From assembly GCA_029167225.1 (NCBI GenBank), contig JARFNK010000001.1, forward strand, positions 310,001-374,000: DNA of 64,000 bases, read 5' to 3'. Of the stretch, positions 1 through 42,158 are shown piece by piece. Each line of letters begins with the position of its first letter. Within the stretch, counting starts at the first letter, position 1. This stretch comes from Sphingobium arseniciresistens (GTDB lineage Bacteria > Pseudomonadota > Alphaproteobacteria > Sphingomonadales > Sphingomonadaceae). Made by a program: the position numbers and the translations under genes. The notes beneath the pieces are model-generated. The model made no database searches. It saw only the letters and a program-made list of their open reading frames with translations, and was not told the DNA's origin.

Positions 1-395
1 GCGCCGCGCAGCGTGGTGAATTCGACGTGCATGTCGATCAGGCAGCCCGGTTCGATGGGCGCACGGAACTTCGCGCCGTCGATGCCCATGAAATAGACGA
101 GCTTGCCCGATCCCGAGAGACCCAGCGATTCGACCGCCAGGATCCCCGCGCACTGCGCGATCGCCTCGACGATCAGCACGCCCGGCATGATCGGCCGTCC
201 GGGAAAATGCCCCTGGAAGAACGGCTCGTTCATGCTCACGGCCTTGACCGCGTGAATCGAGGTCTTGGGGACCATCGAGACCACGCGGTCAACCAGCAGG
301 AACGGGTAGCGGTGCGGCAACGCGGCCATGATCCCCCGGATATCCAGGGGACCAAGGGCCTGCGTTTCCGCGCCGGTCTCTACGCTGTCGCTCAT
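1..395 (-). CDS. fabZ: 3-hydroxyacyl-ACP dehydratase FabZ (3' end cut by window)
   Basis: Dehydrates 3-hydroxyacyl-ACP to trans-2-enoyl-ACP in type II fatty acid synthesis (cytosol). The visible protein starts [10 protein letters not shown], with the FabZ core [13 protein letters not shown] carrying the catalytic His, followed by [17 protein letters not shown], whose Glu is the second catalytic residue. The C-terminus lies beyond base 1, so only about 131 residues are seen. The ATG at 395 is 8 bases after the skp stop, so the two are co-transcribed. In enteric bacteria lpxD separates skp from fabZ; here it is absent. Identification is firm. Confidence 0.95.
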
Positions 396-403
396 CTGCC
401 CGA

Positions 404-1075
404 TCAGCGGCTGGTGGGCTTCTGGCCAGCGGCGGCCGGAGCGGCAGCGGCCGGAGCGGCGGCAGGCGCGGCAGCGCCCTGCTGCGCGCCGGGCTGCCAG
501 CCGGCCGGCGGCACGATGCCGACGCTGGGGACGAGCGTGTTCAGCTCAGCCGTGACCATCGTGGTGATGTCGACCGACGGGGCGTAGGAGATCGCGGCTT
601 CCGGCGAAACCACCAGGTCAACCTTGGCCTTGCCCATGGCGGCCTTCAGCGCGTCGTTGAGCTTGGCGGTGATCTGCTGCTCGACATAGGCGTTGGCGAG
701 GCCGAGCGGCTGGCCGAGCTGCTGCAGTTCCTGCTGGGCCTGCTGGCTGCGCTCCTGAAGCTGCTGATACTGGGTCTGCAGCGCCGGGGTCGGCTTGCCG
801 CCAGCCGCCTTCAGCGCGGCCTGCAGCGCGTCGCTCTTGGTCTTCAGTTCGGTGTCGAGCGCGGTCTTGCGCGCGTTGAAGCTGTCGATCGTGCCCTTGT
901 AGGTGGTGTTCATTTGACCGCGCGCGGTGCTGTATGCGGTGGTTTCCGCCACGGCGCGATCGAGGTTGACGACCGCGATGCCCAGCTTCGACTGGGCCGA
1001 AGCTGGCGCAGCAGCAAGCACGATGGCGGTCATGGGAGCCAGAGCAAGCGCAGCGGCCTTGAAAATCGTCTTCAT
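404..1075 (-). CDS. skp: OmpH/Skp-family periplasmic chaperone
   Basis: Periplasmic holdase for unfolded outer-membrane proteins on their way to BamA. 223 residues: signal peptide of about 28 residues ending PASAQ, then [13 protein letters not shown] and a long Gln/Leu/Ala coiled coil ([20 protein letters not shown]) typical of the Skp tentacles. The extra C-terminal tail of about 45 residues is rich in Ala, Pro and Gln. The ATG overlaps the bamA stop by one base (TGATG), suggesting translational coupling. The open frame continues far upstream inside bamA, but the signal peptide and overlap fix the start at 1075. Confidence 0.93.
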
Positions 1076-3756
1076 CAGAATTGAGTCCCTACGTTGAAAG
1101 TGATGAGCTTGGTGTCGTCGCCATATTCCTTGAGCAGAGCCTTGGCGATGTCGATGCGGAACGGACCGAAGGGCGAGTTCCAGTTGACGCCGAAACCGAC
1201 CGAAACGCGCGGCTTGAGCGAATCGCCGACATATTCCTCGATAAAGCCGCCGCCGCTGGAGGTGTAGCCGACGCCACATGTCGGGCTGAGCGGGTTCCCG
1301 GTCGCCCTCGTAGTCGGCAGCGTCGTATCGGTAGGTGTGCAGTAGCCAGCAAAATTTGTGGTGATCGGATCGCGCAGGCTGCCGACGGCACCGGCATCGA
1401 CGAACACCGAGGGCCGCAGACCCATTTCGCGAGCGCCCGAGCCGAGCGGGATCTCGACTTCCGCATGGGCCAGATAATACATCCGGCCACCAAGCGCATC
1501 GTCCACCACATTGTTTCGTCCGGTCGGAAGGACATAGGTGCCCGCCGTGTCGCCGGCCTGCAGAAAGGAGCGGCGCACACGCGGACCGATACCGCGAATG
1601 TCGAAGCCACGCAGCTGCGGCTCGCCCAGGTTGAAGCGATCGGTCAGCCGGACCTTGTCGATGATGTTGCCGGTCGTATCGTAGCGCGTGTTTTCCAGCG
1701 AGTGGATATACCCGCCCTCGCCCGACACGGTTAAGATGAAGCCGCTGCCGAAGAGGCGCCAGTGCTTGGAGGCGTTGAGGCGGGTGCGGACATATTTGAC
1801 GCTGCCGCCAAGACCGGCGAAATCCTGGCTGAGCGTGATAGACTCGCCGCGCGTCGGACGGATGCGGTTGTCGCGATCGTCGAAGATCAGCGAGTAGCCG
1901 ATCGAAGAGGTCGTGCGCTTGCCGATAGCGTCGCATAGATAGCGGCCAGCGAGCAGCGGGTCGCAACTGTCGTTGTCCGAATTGCCCAAAATATTGTCGT
2001 TATTGTTGTCGGTGTAGTAAGTGGCCTTGTTGAGCGTCACGTCATCGAAATTGAGGCCGTAGCGCAGCGCGAGCGATGCGAATTCGGTCAGCGGCACGCC
2101 GGCGCGGATCTGGAAGCCGGTGGTCGTCTGCTCGTAGGTCGTGTTGCGATCGTTATTGTTGATATAGTTGAAGCTGTTGAGGTCACGGCGGAAGATGTCG
2201 CCGCCCAGCGCGATATTCTTGTCCATCAGATAGGGTTCGGTAAAGCCCACCTCGACCGACTTGGAATAGCTGGAATAGTTGACGCTGGTCCGCAGTTCCT
2301 GGCCCTTGCCGCGGAAGTTGCGCTGCGTGATCGAGGCCGAGACGATGAAGCGCTCGAGGCTGGAGAAACCGGCCGAAAGCGACAGCTCGCCGGTCGACTT
2401 TTCCTGCACATTGGTTTCCAGCACGATGCGATCGGGCGCGGAACCGGGCTTCTGCTCGATATCCAGCTTTTCCTGGAAGAAGCCGAGCGAATTGATGCGG
2501 TCCTTGGAGCGCTTGACGCTGAAGCTGTTGAACGCATCGCCCTCGTTCAAACGGAACTCGCGGCGGACGACCTTGTCCTGCGTCAGCGTGTTGCCGTTGA
2601 TGTCGATCCGCTCGACATAGACGCGCGGCGCATTGGCGATGCGGAAGGTGATCCCCATGGTGAGATCATCCTTGTTCCGGTTGAAGTCCGGCTGGATGTC
2701 GGTGAAGGCATAGCCGAACAGGCCGGCCGTCTCGTTCAGCTGGTCGACGGTGTCCTCGACCTGCTTTGCGTTGTACCAGTTGCCCTTCTTCATCGGCAGC
2801 AGCTTGGTCAGGTTTTCGCCGCTGATGTCGCGAATATCGCTTTCGACCTTCACGTCGGAGAATTTGTAGCGCTGCCCCTCTTCCACCACATAGGTGATGA
2901 TGAAGTCCTGCTTGTTGGGCGTCAGTTCCGCCACGGCGGAGATCACGCGGAAATCGGCATAGCCGTTGGTCAGGTAGAACTGGCGCAGCTTCTGCTGGTC
3001 ATAGGCCAGACGATCTGGATCATAGCTGGTGCCCGAGGAGAACAGGCGGAACCAGCGCGACTGCTTGGTCGCCATTTCAGTGCGCAGCTCGCCATCGGAA
3101 AACTTGTCGTTGCCGATGATGTTGATCTGGCGGACCTTCGACTTGGGCCCTTCGGTGATTTCGAAGACGATGTCGACGCGGTTCTGGTCCAGCTGTACCA
3201 TCTTGGGCTCGACCGTGGCGCCGAAGCGGCCCTGGCGGCGATACAGCTCGATGATGCGGGCAACGTCGGCGCGGACCTTCGACCGGGTATAGATCTGGCG
3301 CGGGGAAAGCTTGATCTCCGGCCGGATCTTGTCTTCCTTCAGGCGCTTGTTGCCCTCAAGGACGATGCGGTTGATGACCGGATTTTCCTTGATCTGGATG
3401 ACGATGTTGCCGGTTTCCGCGCCGCTGATCTGCACGTCGGCGAACAGCTCCGTCTCGAACAGGTCGCGCAGCGCCTGGTCCAGCGTTTCGCGGGTGTAGG
3501 CGCTGCCCACGCGCAGCTTGGTGTAGGACAGGACGGTGTCCGCCTCCAGGCGCTGCGCACCATCGACCGACAGAGACTTGATGGTCGTCGCCACCGGCAC
3601 CGCGGCGGGCGGCGTTGCGGGGGCCGGCGTGGCGGCAGCAGGCGCCGGGCGCGTCTGGGCGAAGGCACCGGGCGCCATTACGCCGGTAAGGACGGTGCCG
3701 GCCAGCAACGCCGCGCAAAGCGGCCGGTGCAAAGTGCTGATCTTGGTCGCTGTCAC
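1075..3756 (-). CDS. bamA: Outer membrane protein assembly factor BamA
   Basis: Central Omp85 subunit of the BAM complex, inserting beta-barrel proteins into the outer membrane. About 893 residues: signal peptide ending GAFAQ, a Pro/Ala-rich linker, five POTRA repeats (first around IKSLSVDGAQRLEADTVL) and a 16-strand barrel ending in the usual aromatic signature NVGTQF. I place the start at the GTG at 3756, because an AGGTAGGA ribosome-binding sequence lies just upstream; an in-frame GTG at 3786 would add ten residues. It lies between rseP and skp in the conserved envelope operon and overlaps skp by one base. Confidence 0.95.
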   Translation of the reverse strand: MTATKISTLHRPLCAALLAGTVLTGVMAPGAFAQTRPAPAAATPAPATPPAAVPVATTIKSLSVDGAQRLEADTVLSYTKLRVGSAYTRETLDQALRDLFETELFADVQISGAETGNIVIQIKENPVINRIVLEGNKRLKEDKIRPEIKLSPRQIYTRSKVRADVARIIELYRRQGRFGATVEPKMVQLDQNRVDIVFEITEGPKSKVRQINIIGNDKFSDGELRTEMATKQSRWFRLFSSGTSYDPDRLAYDQQKLRQFYLTNGYADFRVISAVAELTPNKQDFIITYVVEEGQRYKFSDVKVESDIRDISGENLTKLLPMKKGNWYNAKQVEDTVDQLNETAGLFGYAFTDIQPDFNRNKDDLTMGITFRIANAPRVYVERIDINGNTLTQDKVVRREFRLNEGDAFNSFSVKRSKDRINSLGFFQEKLDIEQKPGSAPDRIVLETNVQEKSTGELSLSAGFSSLERFIVSASITQRNFRGKGQELRTSVNYSSYSKSVEVGFTEPYLMDKNIALGGDIFRRDLNSFNYINNNDRNTTYEQTTTGFQIRAGVPLTEFASLALRYGLNFDDVTLNKATYYTDNNNDNILGNSDNDSCDPLLAGRYLCDAIGKRTTSSIGYSLIFDDRDNRIRPTRGESITLSQDFAGLGGSVKYVRTRLNASKHWRLFGSGFILTVSGEGGYIHSLENTRYDTTGNIIDKVRLTDRFNLGEPQLRGFDIRGIGPRVRRSFLQAGDTAGTYVLPTGRNNVVDDALGGRMYYLAHAEVEIPLGSGAREMGLRPSVFVDAGAVGSLRDPITTNFAGYCTPTDTTLPTTRATGNPLSPTCGVGYTSSGGGFIEEYVGDSLKPRVSVGFGVNWNSPFGPFRIDIAKALLKEYGDDTKLITFNVGTQF

Positions 3757-3855
3757 CCGAAGTCCTACCTTTTCGAAATATTCCACGCGATGTCCCGGAA
3801 ACCGTCCGGGCGCCGCAACACTGCGCGCACGCCCGCTGTCCCTGCCCGAACCGGC

Positions 3856-4989
3856 TCAGCCGATCAAGCCGGAGAGCTTCTTCCAGAGCCCGAAAGACGA
3901 CAAATCATTGAATGTCACCAGCACCATCACCGTCAGCAGCACCGCAAGGCCCGAACGATAGGCCCATTCCTGCACCTTCGCGCTGACCGGGCGGCGCTGG
4001 ACCCCCTCGATCGCGTAGAAGAGCAGGTGGCCGCCATCCAGCATAGGGATTGGCAACAGGTTGATGAACCCCAAGTTAATCGAGATGATCGCCATGAAGC
4101 TGAGGAAGCCCTCCAGCCCGATCATCATCGCCTGGCCGGAGATGTCGGCGATCTTGAGCGGCCCGCCCATTTCCTTCACCGAACGGCGGCCGGTGATGAT
4201 CTGGCCCAGCCCGTCCAGCGCCGAGGTAAAGAACTGCCCGGTGCGCTTGACGCCGATGACGGGGATTTCCCACAGCGCGACCTCGCGCGTGGTCAGCGGG
4301 CCGGAGCCTACGCCGAGCTGGCCGAGCCGATAGACATTGCCGAAGCGGTCCTTCTCTTCCCGCGTGCCGGCCGTCACCGTCATGTCGATCTGCTGCCCGC
4401 CGCGGGTCACCAGATATTCCAGCGGCTCGCCGGGGCGCAGCGCGACGATGCTGGAGATATCGCGGAAGCTGTCGATCTCACGTCCCATGATCCGGTCGAT
4501 CCGGTCGCCCACCTTGAGCCCGGCCGCCTGCGCGGCGGAGCCTGGCATCACGATGCCGACGACCGGCGGACTTTCGCGCTCGCCATAGGCATAGGCAAGG
4601 CCACCAAGCATCAGGATGGCAAACAGGAAGTTGATGAGCGGCCCGGCCGCGACGATCGCCGCACGCTGCCACACGGGCTTTGCGGGGAAGCATCTGTTGC
4701 GCTCGGCCGCCGGCATGGAGAGCCATGCGGGGTCGGTCTGGCTGGCGGCGTTCATGTCGCCCTTGAAGCGCACATAGCCGCCCAGCGGCAGCATGGCGAT
4801 GCGCCAGCGGGTGCCGCCCTTGTCGACCCAGGCGAACAGTTCCTTGCCGAATCCGATGGAAAAGGCTTCCGCATGCACGCCGCACCAGCGGCCGACGAGA
4901 TAGTGCCCCATCTCATGCACGAAGACGAGCGGGCCGATGACCGCGACAAAGGCGAGAACGGTCAGGAAGAACCCTGGATTTTCGATCAA
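3856..4989 (-). CDS. rseP: Site-2 intramembrane zinc metalloprotease RseP
   Basis: Cleaves transmembrane substrates such as anti-sigma factors and signal-peptide remnants in the inner membrane. 377 residues: the first membrane segment carries the zinc motif VFVHEMGHYLVG (HExxH), a central PDZ domain spans about 120-210 (MPGSAAQAAGLKVGDRI), and near the C-terminus NLLPIPMLDGGHLL supplies the third ligand (LDG motif). The start is a TTG at 4989, giving a four-base TTGA overlap with the dxr stop; no nearby ATG would keep the first membrane helix. Translational coupling to dxr is likely. Confidence 0.95.
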   Translation of the reverse strand: MIENPGFFLTVLAFVAVIGPLVFVHEMGHYLVGRWCGVHAEAFSIGFGKELFAWVDKGGTRWRIAMLPLGGYVRFKGDMNAASQTDPAWLSMPAAERNRCFPAKPVWQRAAIVAAGPLINFLFAILMLGGLAYAYGERESPPVVGIVMPGSAAQAAGLKVGDRIDRIMGREIDSFRDISSIVALRPGEPLEYLVTRGGQQIDMTVTAGTREEKDRFGNVYRLGQLGVGSGPLTTREVALWEIPVIGVKRTGQFFTSALDGLGQIITGRRSVKEMGGPLKIADISGQAMMIGLEGFLSFMAIISINLGFINLLPIPMLDGGHLLFYAIEGVQRRPVSAKVQEWAYRSGLAVLLTVMVLVTFNDLSSFGLWKKLSGLIG

Positions 4990-10253: not shown

Positions 10254-11009
10254 TCAAGCCTCGACGGCTTCCTCGGCAGCCGGCTCGTCCAGCGCGCCGA
10301 TGTCGATGCCGGACGCCTGCTGGGCGCCACGGTTGCCCTTGGTCGCGGCAGCGGCGATCGCCTCGCAATACAGGCGGATGGCGCGGCTCGCGTCATCGTT
10401 CGCCGGAACCGGGAAGGCGATGCCGTCGGGCGAGACGTTCGAATCGAGGATCGCGACGACCGGGATACCCAGCGTGTTGGCTTCCTTGATCGCCAGTTCT
10501 TCCTTGTTCGCGTCGATCACGAACATGACATCGGGGATGCCGTTCATGTCGCGGATGCCGCCCAGCGAAAGCTCCAGCTTCTCGCGCTCGCGGGTCATCT
10601 GGAGGACTTCCTTCTTGGTGAAGCCGTGGGTATCGCCCGACAGCTTTTCCTCAAGGGTCTTCAGACGCTTGATCGAACCCGAAATGGTCTTCCAGTTGGT
10701 GAGCATGCCGCCCAGCCAGCGATGGTTGACGAAATGCTGGCCCGAACGGCGAGCGGCCTCTGCGATCGGGTCCTGCGCCTGGCGCTTGGTGCCGACGAAC
10801 AGAACCTTGCCACCGGCGGCGACGCTGGCCGACACGAAGTCGAGCGCGCGGGCGAACAGGGGCACAGTCTGCGAGAGGTCGAGGATGTGGATGCCGTTGC
10901 GATCGCCGAAGATATACGGCTTCATGCGCGGGTTCCAGCGGTGGGTCTGGTGGCCGAAATGGGCACCGGCCTCAATCAATTGCTGCATCGTGACGACAGG
11001 GGCCGCCAT
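10254..11009 (-). CDS. rpsB: 30S ribosomal protein S2
   Basis: Small-subunit protein that joins late and helps bind S1. 251 residues. Seen: [20 protein letters not shown], the [16 protein letters not shown] stretch, [13 protein letters not shown], and [20 protein letters not shown]. The tail is Ala/Glu-rich. The start ATG at 11009 has GGAGAAATACC upstream. It is the first gene of the minus-strand operon; its promoter must lie in 11010-11160, back to back with an SOS-boxed gene. Confidence 0.97.
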
Positions 11010-11159: not shown

Positions 11160-11203
11160 TTGACAGAATCGGGAGACGAGAACATAAAGTGAACATACGG
11201 AAC
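11160..11203 (+). promoter_or_regulatory. Sigma70-like promoter overlapped by a LexA-type box
   Basis: TTGACA (11160-11165), a 17-base spacer, then CATAAA (11183-11188) form a near-consensus promoter reading right. GAAC at 11180-11183 and GAAC at 11191-11194 are exactly 7 bases apart, which is the alphaproteobacterial LexA box GTTC-N7-GTTC read on the other strand. A third GAAC follows at 11200-11203. The box covers the -10 element, the classic repression geometry. The recA box in this window has the same form. Confidence 0.7.
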
Positions 11204-11278
11204 AAATGACGGTTTCACGCGATTCGAAACGTCCATGCAGGGCAAGGCGTGCGTCCGTTGCGGTGAAAGGGTAATGCG

Positions 11279-11533
11279 ATGTTCAGCGTGATCTCTGCTT
11301 TCGTTTTCGTGACGGCCTTCTCGCTCGCTGTCGGCACCATAGCCTATATGCTGCACGCATATAAGGAAAAGATGATCGCCGCGCTGCTGGTGGAGCCCAT
11401 CCCCCACAAGGTCCGCGAAACCCATGTCGCGGTGCAGCGCTTCCGCGGCGGTCCGGCAAGCACCCCTGCCCCGATGCGCCGCCGTCAGCGCCTGCCCATG
11501 GCCGGGCGCGCGCCAATGGCCGTCGCGGCCTGA
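11279..11533 (+). CDS. Small single-pass membrane protein, probably SOS-controlled
   Basis: Unrecognised 84-residue protein. Residues 3-25 form one hydrophobic helix (VISAFVFVTAFSLAVGTIAY) ending at a YKEK basic border, so the basic Pro/Arg-rich tail (PAPMRRRQRLPMAGRAPM) is predicted cytoplasmic. The ATG at 11279 has AAAGGG 7 bases upstream. Transcription would start near 11195 from a promoter whose -10 sits in a LexA-type box. It is divergent from rpsB and convergent with pssA. SOS-induced small membrane proteins that inhibit division (SidA in Caulobacter) suggest one possible role, but I see no clear sequence match. An ordinary small membrane protein is the alternative. Confidence 0.8.
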   Translation: MFSVISAFVFVTAFSLAVGTIAYMLHAYKEKMIAALLVEPIPHKVRETHVAVQRFRGGPASTPAPMRRRQRLPMAGRAPMAVAA

Positions 11534-11553: not shown

Positions 11554-12351
11554 TCAGGCGCCCGGTGCTTCGGCAGCCCGGCGCTTCACCCGCGCATAGC
11601 TCATGACGCCGAAGGGGATGCACAGCACATAGGCAGCGCTGATCGCCAGCAGGGTGAGCCATGGGTTGGTGACGAGCAAGGCCGCGAGCAGTCCGGCCAG
11701 CGCAATGGCCTCCAGCCGCACCGTCTTGCGCAGCCGCAGCGACGTCCAGCTATAGGTCGCGACGTTGGAAATCATCAGGAACGCCGTGAACACTGCCCAC
11801 GGGGCCACCACATACCAGGCGCGGAAAATGTCCATCTCCGTCACCAGCCACAGGTAGATCGGCATGAAGGCAAGGCCCGCTCCCGCGGGTGCCGGCACGC
11901 CGGTCAGGAAGCCCGCCGCCTTGCGTGGCTGGATATCGGCATCGATATTGGCGTTGAACCGCGCGAGCCGTAGCGCGCAGCTCAGTGCATGGCACAGCGC
12001 GAAGATCCACCCGAATTTCGGCATCGCCTGCAGCGACCAGAGATAGAGGATCAGCGCGGGCGCGACGCCGAAGGCGATGCAGTCCGAGAGCGAATCCAGT
12101 TCCGCGCCGAAGCGGCTCTCGCCCCGCAGCATGCGGGCGATGCGTCCATCCAGCCCGTCGAGCACGCCGGCGAAGATGATGCAGGCGACCGCCTTTTCCC
12201 AGTCGCCCGACGCGCCGCCCGCCGCCGAAATACCGTAGCGCACCCCGGTCAGGCCGAAGCACAGCGCCATCGCCGTGACGGCATTGGGCGCGACCATCCG
12301 CAAGGTGATGCCGCGACGGAGCCCTGCCGGAATGGCGCGCCTCTGCCTCAT
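11554..12351 (-). CDS. pssA: CDP-diacylglycerol-serine O-phosphatidyltransferase
   Basis: Transfers phosphatidyl from CDP-diacylglycerol to serine, giving phosphatidylserine in the inner membrane. 265 residues, multi-pass. The CDP-alcohol phosphatidyltransferase motif is intact: [20 protein letters not shown] followed by LDSLSD (DGxxAR-x8-G-x3-D-x3-D). It overlaps psd by four bases (12348-12351), so synthesis and decarboxylation of phosphatidylserine are coupled. Substrate supply comes from CdsA encoded at 6.2 kb. Confidence 0.94.
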
Positions 12352-13106
12352 TGCAGCACGCCGAAAATCGTGCTCGCGTCGCCAAGCCGGGCGATGACGG
12401 TCTCGCCCGCAACGGTGCGCTGGCCAAGGACCACCTTGGGCTGCGTGCCAGCGGGCAGATAGACGTCCACCCGGCTGCCGAAGCGGATGAGGCCGATGCG
12501 CTGGCCGGCCGCGACCATATCGCCCGGCTTCACGAACGGCACGATCCGCCGCGCCACCAGCCCTGCGATCTGCGTGAAGCCGATCCGCACGCCATCGGCA
12601 CGCTCGACCAGGATATGCTGGCGCTCATTATCCTCGCTCGCCTTGTCGAGATCGGCATTGAGGAACTTGCCGGAGATGTAGACGACCGACTTCACGATGC
12701 CGGTGATCGGGGTGCGATTGATATGCACGTCGAACACGCTCATGAAGATCGACACGCGCATCATCGGCTGATCGCCCAGTCCGGCCTCGCCCGCCATTTC
12801 GCGCGGCGGGGGCACCATCTGGATCAGCGTGATGAGGCCATCGGCAGGCGCGATCACCAGATTTTCGTCCTGCGGCGTCGCGCGTACCGGATCACGGAAG
12901 AAGGTGAGCACCCAGATGGTGACGATCACCATCAGCCAGCCGACGACTTCCCAGCCGACAATGAAGAACAGCGCGGTGATCGCCGCTGCGATCAGACCGA
13001 ACTTGCGCCCTTCCGGGTGCACCGCGGGGAAACGCCATTTGACCCCGCCCTGGCTGGTCATTGCGGGATCGGAGCTAGGGCTCGTCGTAAATTCAGTCTT
13101 GTCCAT
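12348..13106 (-). CDS. psd: Phosphatidylserine decarboxylase proenzyme
   Basis: Decarboxylates phosphatidylserine to phosphatidylethanolamine using a pyruvoyl group made by self-cleavage. 252 residues, the short class. The self-cleavage Gly-Ser lies in [16 protein letters not shown] near the C-terminus. Family residues also appear in [10 protein letters not shown] and [13 protein letters not shown]. The N-terminus has a membrane-associated stretch ([20 protein letters not shown]). Directly upstream of and overlapping pssA. Identification is firm. Confidence 0.93.
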
Positions 13107-40974: not shown

Positions 40975-42057
40975 TCAGATATCGCCGTCCTCCGCCTCGG
41001 AGTCGGGTCCGGTCATCATCCCCTCGGCCACCGCCTCGGTCTTGCCGCGGATCGCCTTTTCCAGGCGCTCGGCCAGTTCGGGATGCTCCTTCAGATAGGT
41101 CTTGGCATTCTCACGGCCCTGCCCGATGCGGACGGAGTCATAGGAGAACCAGGCGCCGGATTTCTCGACGATGCCCGCCTTCACGCCCAGGTCGAGCATC
41201 TCGCCGATCTTGGAGATGCCCTCGCCATACATGATGTCGAATTCCACCTGCTTGAAGGGCGGTGCCACCTTGTTCTTCACCACCTTCACGCGGGTCGCAT
41301 TGCCGACGATGTCGTCGCGATCCTTGATCTGGCCGGTACGGCGGATGTCGAGGCGGACGGAGGCGTAGAATTTCAGCGCATTGCCGCCGGTCGTGGTTTC
41401 CGGGTTGCCGTACATCACGCCGATCTTCATGCGCAGCTGGTTGATGAAGATCACCATGCAGCGCGAGCGCGAGATGGAACCGGTCAGCTTGCGCAGCGAC
41501 TGCGACATAAGCCGCGCCTGCAGGCCGACATGGCTGTCGCCCATTTCACCCTCGATCTCGGCACGCGGCACCAGCGCGGCCACCGAGTCGACCACCAACA
41601 CGTCGATGGCGTTGGAGCGGACCAGCGTGTCCACGATTTCCAGCGCCTGCTCGCCGGTGTCCGGCTGCGACACGATCAGTTCGTTGATGTCGACGCCCAG
41701 CTTCTTGGCATAGACCGGGTCGAGCGCATGTTCCGCGTCGACAAAGGCAGCGGTGCCGCCGCCCTTCTGCGCTTCGGCGATGACATGCAGCGCCAGCGTG
41801 GTCTTGCCCGAGCTTTCCGGCCCGTAGATTTCAATGACGCGCCCGCGCGGCAATCCGCCCACGCCAAGCGCGATGTCGAGGCCAAGCGATCCGGTCGAGA
41901 TCGCCTCCACCTGCATCGTTTCCTTGGAGCCCAGCTTCATCGCGCTGCCCTTGCCGAAGGCGCGATCGATCTGGGAGAGCGCTGCCTCCAATGCTTTCTG
42001 TCTGTCCATGGTTCCCGTCTTCTTGTCGGCGTCGATCAGTTTCAGCATTGCCGTCAT
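40975..42057 (-). CDS. recA: DNA recombinase / SOS coprotease RecA
   Basis: Forms the nucleoprotein filament for homologous recombination and activates LexA self-cleavage. 360 residues with the start at 42057, where AGGGGA lies 7 bases upstream; an in-frame ATG 25 codons earlier is unlikely. Walker [13 protein letters not shown], Walker B region [21 protein letters not shown]2-loop segment [20 protein letters not shown]; acidic tail [11 protein letters not shown]. An alphaproteobacterial LexA box lies 87 bases upstream of the start. Confidence 0.98.
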
Positions 42058-42143
42058 CGCATGGTCCCCTGTCAAGCGGCCGATGTGGCCAGGGTGCGCC
42101 ACAAGCGGCGCCTGCAATGCCATGTATCCCATTTGTTCTTATG

Positions 42144-42158
42144 GAACAAGATAGGAAC
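42144..42158 (-). promoter_or_regulatory. LexA box upstream of recA
   Basis: On the minus strand it reads GTTC-CTATCTT-GTTC, an exact GTTC-N7-GTTC alphaproteobacterial SOS box. The downstream GTTC also forms an inverted repeat TTGTTC-N5-GAACAA (42134-42150). It is the expected operator of recA and a reference for the box at 11180. Confidence 0.85.

Follow-up and report, generated by a model that had tools for sequence, protein, structure and literature searches.

Our data point to an SOS gene, so far undescribed, in the family of sphingomonads to which the DNA analysed here belongs. The gene encodes a membrane protein of 84 residues, here called X, which would be repressed by LexA and, by analogy with known systems, may act as an inhibitor of cell division; on the whole of this proposal the case seems to us evenly balanced. 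The DNA in question, called the window throughout, is a stretch of 64,000 nucleotides from Sphingobium arseniciresistens and forms part of a 6.6-Mb genome. The features of the promoter region, together with the recA site used for comparison, are the following:

11160..11165, plus strand: -35 hexamer TTGACA, an exact match
11183..11188, plus strand: -10 hexamer CATAAA, inside the operator, after a 17-nt spacer
11180..11194, plus strand: LexA-type operator GAAC-N7-GAAC, GAACATAAAGTGAAC, conserved and common to repair genes of the same genome
11198..11206, plus strand: third GAAC half-site, CGGAACAAA, its GAAC beginning 20 nt past the first
11265..11271, plus strand: GAAAGGG, a possible weak ribosome-binding site, from a reading of the sequence only
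42144..42158, plus strand: LexA-type box of recA, the comparison site
40975-42132, minus strand: RecA ORF (TIGR02012)

A preliminary description of this DNA had proposed a near-consensus promoter with its -10 element covered by GAAC-N7-GAAC, and inspection of the window bears this out. Specifically, the exact arrangement TTGACA-N17-CATAAA (11160-11188, plus strand) is the sole match in the 64 kb with at most one mismatch allowed, where shuffling expects 0.03, and the operator spans the -10 of the X promoter, with the start of X 99 nt downstream. Taken alone and within the window, the 8-base box is unremarkable and not beyond what chance would give, since two matches were counted against 1.06 expected and at least two appeared in 25 of 100 shuffles. 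The other of the two matches, at 42144-42158, lies 12 nt before the recA ORF, so that the same form of box does occur at recA, as had been pointed out.

The leader between the operator and the start codon was also analysed. The consensus fold of the leaders of X orthologs reached -0.45 kcal/mol with zero compensatory changes, and the leader in the window folded no better than its shuffles (z-score 0.52). A regulatory hairpin, which had been suspected by eye, was therefore rejected. A five-pair pairing between GGAAC and the start-codon region in the leader fold was likewise discarded, because it never changes on both sides together and provides no evidence. In the same way, a terminator between X and the pssA-like gene downstream was rejected, the folding there being no stronger than that of shuffles (z -1.05 and 0.07).

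Across the genome of the window, the pattern GAACAN6GAAC was found 47 times, compared to 20 times for the reversed pattern, a few of the sites being contig-end repeats. Twenty of the 47 sites, picked by eye for A/T-rich spacers, were read, and ten of these lie beside recA (TIGR02012), three ImuA-like genes (NF033429, matches below the cut-off), two SRAP genes, uvrD, two radical-SAM genes (one encoding a TIGR03916 repair protein and one a PA0069-family protein) and one S24-peptidase gene. The lexA gene was found by means of PF01726, a second match there being below the cut-off, and GAACGGATGGAGAAC, again of the form GAAC-N7-GAAC, is located 15 nt beyond the lexA domain match and just upstream of the gene, in an orientation read by eye. 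This set of genes fits the one co-induced in Sphingopyxis granuli, where the genes for LexA, RecA and SRAP proteins and two imuAB-dnaE2 operons are reported to respond together, the SOS genes rising 4-12 fold in anoxia (PMC6472365).

Some further observations were made at these sites. At the PA0069-family radical-SAM gene, a box with the same sequence as that of X (L165:1501-1515; C77:30452) overlaps the longest ORF of the gene, and on the other side of the box there is a secreted-looking ORF. The three ImuA-like genes with LexA-type boxes are found in the loci L141, L149 and L154, the last of which weakly matches the SulA exception model, far below the cut-off. In addition, GAACATAAAGAGAAC (L169:1501-1515; C99:164810) is placed ahead of a row of short ORFs.

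By sequence, X was matched in 79 of the 94 genomes of the genus; a single-protein scan of the genome contigs with X gave zero matches. The preliminary description had set the absence of the box in relatives as refuting its reading. This refutation did not occur: the box proved to be present in all the genus loci read, in two sets, and in 80 of the 85 family loci described below. In the first set it lies 98-104 nt before the start of the match in 31 of 31 loci, which are that of the window, G196 and the 29 others that matched best, and not a random sample. In the second it was found in 43 of 43 named loci, a set overlapping the first, in which 38 of the 43 are titled Sphingobium; a 44th match, L263, which comes from a Clostridiales bin and shows 35% identity, was left out. 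L003, the stretch of which is cut short, was not counted. Among the 44 distinct genus promoters (the 43 and that of the window), TTGAC and both GAAC half-sites are invariant.

The third half-site shows a pattern of its own. GGAAC occupies its position in 43 of the 44 genus-set promoters, GGAACAAA being found in 39 of the 44. Over the family, 30 of 79 loci have GGAAC downstream of the box, compared to 2.3 expected from letter shuffling, and in 17 of these 30 the GAAC begins 20 nt beyond either the first half-site or the second. This element may be an extra contact for LexA or a start-site element.

The family set corresponds to one GTDB family, which we take to be Sphingomonadaceae; NCBI now places Sphingobium in Sphingobiaceae, order Sphingomonadales. 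A sequence search for X gave matches in 13 of 199 family genomes, seven of which were off-target (L004, L007 and L009-L013 were dropped, neither rpsB nor pssA being beside them). Such a search recovers few X genes because X diverges fast, and position was used instead, by reference to the following neighbours:

11554..12351, minus strand: pssA-like gene, convergent, the constant neighbour (TIGR00473, 88 bits, below the cut-off of 107)
12348-13106: psd, next after the pssA-like gene (over its NCBIfam cut-off)
10254..11009, minus strand: rpsB, divergent, not a constant neighbour (TIGR01011, over its cut-off)

The search for rpsB was positive in 196 of the 199 family genomes, and 90 loci (L043-L132) were sampled from 75 of 96 genera, the other 21, those where rpsB diverges most or the contig ends, being excluded from the family count. 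To these were added 16 pssA loci from the 17 genomes lacking pssA in the stretch around rpsB (G025 being pssA-negative), and 18 of the resulting 106 loci, namely 17 rpsB-side loci and L087, were set aside, pssA being absent or weak. In 85 of the 88 family loci with pssA, a plus-strand ORF of 52-111 codons with one predicted helix was found, convergent with pssA; the ORF picker requires a helix and favours a nearby ATG, and some starts may be a few codons off. A recognised X is missing in the other three pssA loci (L176, L181 and L182), and in L181 and L182 a forward box is located 67 nt from the end of pssA.

Within 220 nt upstream of the ORF, GAAC-N7-GAAC is present in 80 of the 85 family loci, where dinucleotide shuffles expect 0.48; the reversed-letter control pattern was found in 2 of the 85. 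The perfect box is missing in L045, L056, L062, L105 and L175, each of which has a version with one mismatch, and in L045 and L175 this version sits just after TTGACA. Conservation over the family and the genus leads us to reject chance as an explanation of the box. Together with the occurrence of the same element at the lexA, recA, imuA-like, SRAP and uvrD genes, and with its staying beside X as detailed below, this strongly supports the SOS/LexA box originally claimed, and the operator and its conservation make control of X by LexA almost certain in our judgement.

The position of the operator within the promoter varies. TTGAC is present within 30 nt upstream of the box in 78 of the 80 family loci. 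In 68 loci it lies 9-12 nt upstream, which places the operator between the -35 and -10 elements, and in eight, belonging to Sphingobium and others, it lies 20 nt upstream, which places the operator on the -10; in two it is found elsewhere. The existence of two promoter geometries in one family indicates that the promoter was remodelled and the operator kept.

When the comparison was extended to other families of the same order and to other orders, the box was found in 0 of 16 pssA loci within 700 nt of the pssA end and in 0 of 26 pssA loci within 1 kb of it (best-scoring class matches), respectively. The same comparison gave the box in seven of eight loci of the window's family, one of which (G042) had been counted earlier. 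L283, also from the window's family, has neither box nor X. On these sequences, X seems to have originated within this family and at this locus; a relocated ancestor of X might lie elsewhere.

Concerning the genomic setting, X had been placed beside rpsB. This holds in the window, but the linkage is incidental, and the constant neighbour is the pssA-like gene, separated from X by 20 nt in the window. Of the 16 pssA loci without an adjacent rpsB, 13 carry X, and 12 of these have a forward box as well, L175 having the box in the GTTC orientation only; in these 16, the distance between rpsB and pssA is 2-11 kb in five and 160-490 kb in six, and the two genes are on different contigs in five. Conversely, 17 rpsB loci without pssA alongside showed zero forward boxes within 700 nt (the L089 stretch being short). 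Therefore, we conclude that the box belongs to X, since it keeps with X and pssA and is absent from the separated rpsB loci. The possibility that the box serves rpsB was rejected, because it stays with X where rpsB is not adjacent.

The features of X itself are as follows:

11279..11533, plus strand: X, a single-helix membrane protein of 84 residues, candidate SOS gene
11285..11353, plus strand: predicted transmembrane helix, about residues 3-25, from hydropathy, with limits judged by eye
11354..11398, plus strand: juxtamembrane segment HAYKEKMIAALLVEP, the most conserved part besides the membrane helix
11399..11518, plus strand: Arg/Pro-rich, fast-evolving tail, modelled without secondary structure in an ortholog
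11519..11530, plus strand: C-terminal AVAA, a candidate SsrA-like degron

The ORF at 11279-11533 corresponds to the protein announced in the preliminary description, that is, 84 residues with one N-terminal membrane helix and a basic tail. The N-terminus is uncharged, the only helix is hydrophobic and N-terminal, and the basic residues follow it. A single helix is found in 85 of 85 family relatives and a second one in none, a figure which is partly by design because a helix requirement was built into the family ORF search. On average, Lys and Arg residues number 0.07 before the helix and 9.5 after it in the family, in which X ranges from 52 to 111 residues and contains, after residue 25, 15.6% Arg and 9.1% Pro. 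From this distribution of charges we are confident, short of certainty, in predicting a bitopic protein with the N-terminus outside and the tail inside.

In an alignment of 30 genus sequences, Y28, K31, A34, A35, L36, P40 and P42 are invariant, as are R54 and R56 in the tail, and the motif Y-x-x-K-M-x-A-A-L-x-x-x-P-x-P is conserved after the helix, with I replacing M in three sequences. The median pairwise dN/dS of X is 0.22 in the first 57 alignment columns and 0.81 in the tail; the former value indicates that the ORF is under constraint at the protein level. An AlphaFold2 model of the L042 ortholog (75 residues, built with the genus alignment) consists of one helix encompassing residues 2-37, with pLDDT values of 93-98 over the first 30 residues and of 54-74 in the tail (mean 78.8, pTM 0.41). 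In this model, the membrane helix seems to continue into the conserved juxtamembrane segment, to residue 37.

Comparison of X with Pfam (up to E = 1) and NCBIfam gave zero matches, and the comparison of X and its orthologs with Pfam, NCBIfam, PHROGs and PDB sequences gave nothing convincing. Hits that involved one or two members only (E 0.026-0.083), as well as PDB matches at 0.094 and 0.68, were taken as noise, and the 30 X orthologs yielded just three one-member Pfam matches, to unrelated families, at E 0.035-0.04. In profile comparisons, for which the groups were chosen by hand and in which helix-helix matches may mislead, the genus set joined 58 other family members with a probability of 96.5%, and these 58 joined 22 further ones at 95.4%; the genus set and the 22 further members, compared directly, gave 2.9%.

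A further feature of X is its C-terminal end. X ends in Ala-Ala in 76 of 85 family loci and, in the two genus sets, in 29 of 31 and in 36 of 43. Among long ORFs taken as background (at least 150 codons, picked mechanically), the frequency is 1 of 39 for the window and 2 of 81 for other loci of the same genome. The 76 ends comprise 53 AAA, 8 VAA, 7 LAA and 8 others, and the Ala-Ala is kept although the preceding tail is nearly unconstrained. The tmRNA tag of the host, ANDNEALALAA, ends in ALAA and resembles the Ala-Ala end of X. ClpX recognises such Ala-Ala ends. We lean towards the view that the C-terminal Ala-Ala of X is a degron for ClpXP. Against this view, nine of the 85 family loci are without Ala-Ala, and 53 of the 76 ends are AAA instead of a hydrophobic residue followed by AA; the Ala-Ala could also be the outcome of drift within an Ala-rich tail.

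A second version of X was found in four IMG/VR contigs (L264-L267) and in three genomes of the genus (L268-L270). In L264-L269 this copy has 56 codons and is made up of the helix, the conserved segment, a few basic residues and the stop, with no Ala-Ala, and in L270 it has 53 codons and ends in Arg-Arg. In L264-L267 and L269 (positions 276-3965), a CI-like S24 repressor, a box of sequence GAACATAAATCGAAC and a 159-codon ORF without a family are found, and the ORF is directly followed by the X copy, which in L264, L265 and L267 is in turn followed by DUF5131. L268 contains the 159-codon ORF and the X copy, the box being absent from the stretch. The stretches around the copies in L264-L270 showed zero pssA or rpsB matches. 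We take these regions to be prophage-like, which rests on the viral collection and on the repressor.

The mechanism that we propose for X, as the best supported of those considered, is a block of division under SOS conditions. LexA bound to GAAC-N7-GAAC would prevent access of RNA polymerase, on the -10 element in Sphingobium and, for most of the other genera sampled, in the interval between -35 and -10. Upon DNA damage, RecA would trigger the cleavage of LexA, and the strong-looking promoter would express X, which would insert in the inner membrane as a short bitopic protein with the N-terminus outside and the Arg/Pro-rich tail inside. The long helix of X would then bind the late divisome (FtsW/FtsI/FtsN) and hold septum synthesis until repair is done, and the Ala-Ala end would mark X for ClpXP, allowing a quick restart of division. 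This role, which the preliminary description had also suggested, is assigned by analogy with SidA, DidA and YneA, because X does not convincingly resemble any family in the catalogues, and also rests on the absence of SulA, the profile of which (PF03846) was found in 0 of 31 genus genomes, with the E. coli control being positive. Against a division block, X is larger than SidA, its predicted tail-inside orientation is unlike that of YneA, and single-helix SOS proteins can act otherwise, as TisB does. The five family loci without a perfect box, the three pssA loci without a recognised X, and L283 also count against the proposal.

Other roles were weighed against this one. A link between the DNA or its repair machinery and the membrane, provided by the Arg-rich cytoplasmic tail of X without stopping division, is consistent with a net basic tail of 15.6% Arg, placed inside by its charge, and with the invariance of R54 and R56 in the 30 genus sequences. 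We regard it as unlikely, however, given that the tail is nearly unconstrained (dN/dS 0.81) and the conservation of the helix and of the juxtamembrane segment points to a membrane or juxtamembrane partner, and that in the prophage-type copies most of the tail is gone whereas the helix is retained. It is rather unlikely, too, that X is an SOS peptide similar to TisB or DinQ, which would depolarise the membrane and slow the cell: LexA-type control, one helix and small size are in line with this, but 52-111 residues with a long tail do not make a short amphipathic peptide, and the structured 5' leader was not seen in the foldings described above (-0.45 kcal/mol; z-score 0.52).

The constant neighbourhood of pssA raises the question of phospholipid synthesis, which X might adjust by contacting the PssA-like enzyme or through a convergent transcript running into pssA under damage. 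X and pssA are indeed adjacent and convergent in 85 of 88 loci, including those without an adjacent rpsB, and psd is the next gene in the window; yet with a 20-nt gap breakpoints are expected to be rare even without a functional link, and neither pssA nor rpsB was found around the prophage-type copies L264-L270, so that we consider such a role improbable. The same copies could suggest that X came from a prophage and was domesticated under LexA control, with superinfection exclusion or host take-over as examples of its function, and in five of the seven (L264-L267 and L269) the copy does lie behind a CI-like S24 repressor and a GAAC-N7-GAAC box. This origin is nevertheless quite improbable, because chromosomal X is found at one conserved place across many genera and only the profile of one genus picked up the second version, borrowing by phages from the host being simpler. 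Finally, although a box of 8 bases is nothing rare on its own in the window, its conservation throughout the family and its recurrence at lexA and recA and at further repair genes make it very improbable that it is a chance occurrence or the site of another regulator instead of a LexA site in use.

Returning to the division block, a more extended scenario is tentatively put forward. X might be a dedicated SOS division checkpoint of the whole family, unrelated to SulA, SidA, DidA and YneA and provided with its own SsrA-like timer cleared by ClpXP, and temperate Sphingobium phages might have taken over its membrane part while leaving out the timer, with a separate LexA-type box ahead of the copy; all of this taken together is possible and, in our estimation, on the doubtful side. 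No study of the sphingomonad LexA regulon, of the X gene or of a sphingomonad SOS division inhibitor was found in the open-access papers searched. SOS-induced small membrane inhibitors are already known; what would be new is one that is family-wide, has its tail inside and carries an SsrA-like end. X is a candidate core SOS gene, missed by catalogues because it is short and diverges fast, in a group of bacteria known for pollutant degradation. If the scenario is true, X would be one more, independent example of the convergence of SOS inhibitors on late septum synthesis, in this case with the degron built in, and would show phages reusing a division inhibitor.

Several known systems can be compared to X. 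TisB is an SOS-induced membrane peptide, much shorter than X, which depolarises the membrane and is under antisense-RNA control, whereas the leader of X shows no conserved structure. SulA, the SOS division inhibitor acting on FtsZ polymerisation (PMC4211646), differs from X, which is a membrane protein and has no PF03846 match. YneA of Bacillus, ChiZ of Mycobacterium and SosA of Staphylococcus are damage-induced bitopic inhibitors. The helix of YneA binds FtsW, and YneA is degraded by proteolysis, letting cells resume division (PMC13396833). YneA and ChiZ carry a LysM domain, which in YneA lies outside; in contrast, X has no domain match, no LysM domain being found by Pfam after the helix of X or of 30 orthologs, and its tail is predicted inside.

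The two Caulobacter crescentus inhibitors were compared to X by description. DidA, with 71 residues and one helix, is damage-induced in an SOS-independent manner (DriD) and binds FtsN (PMC4211646). Both DidA and X are small proteins with one helix, but DidA is SOS-independent, whereas X has a LexA-type box. SidA has 29 residues, is controlled by LexA, resides in the inner membrane and acts on FtsW (PMC4211646). Removal of sidA is reported to rescue a lexA deletion (PMC12700426). By length, X falls outside SidA (29 residues against 84, with a range of 52-111 in the family), and it has in addition a long basic tail and the Ala-Ala end. On these terms, SidA and X are alike in their LexA-type control through GTTC-N7-GTTC, in their single helix, in their inner-membrane location, predicted for X, and in their alphaproteobacterial hosts, a likeness of kind only.
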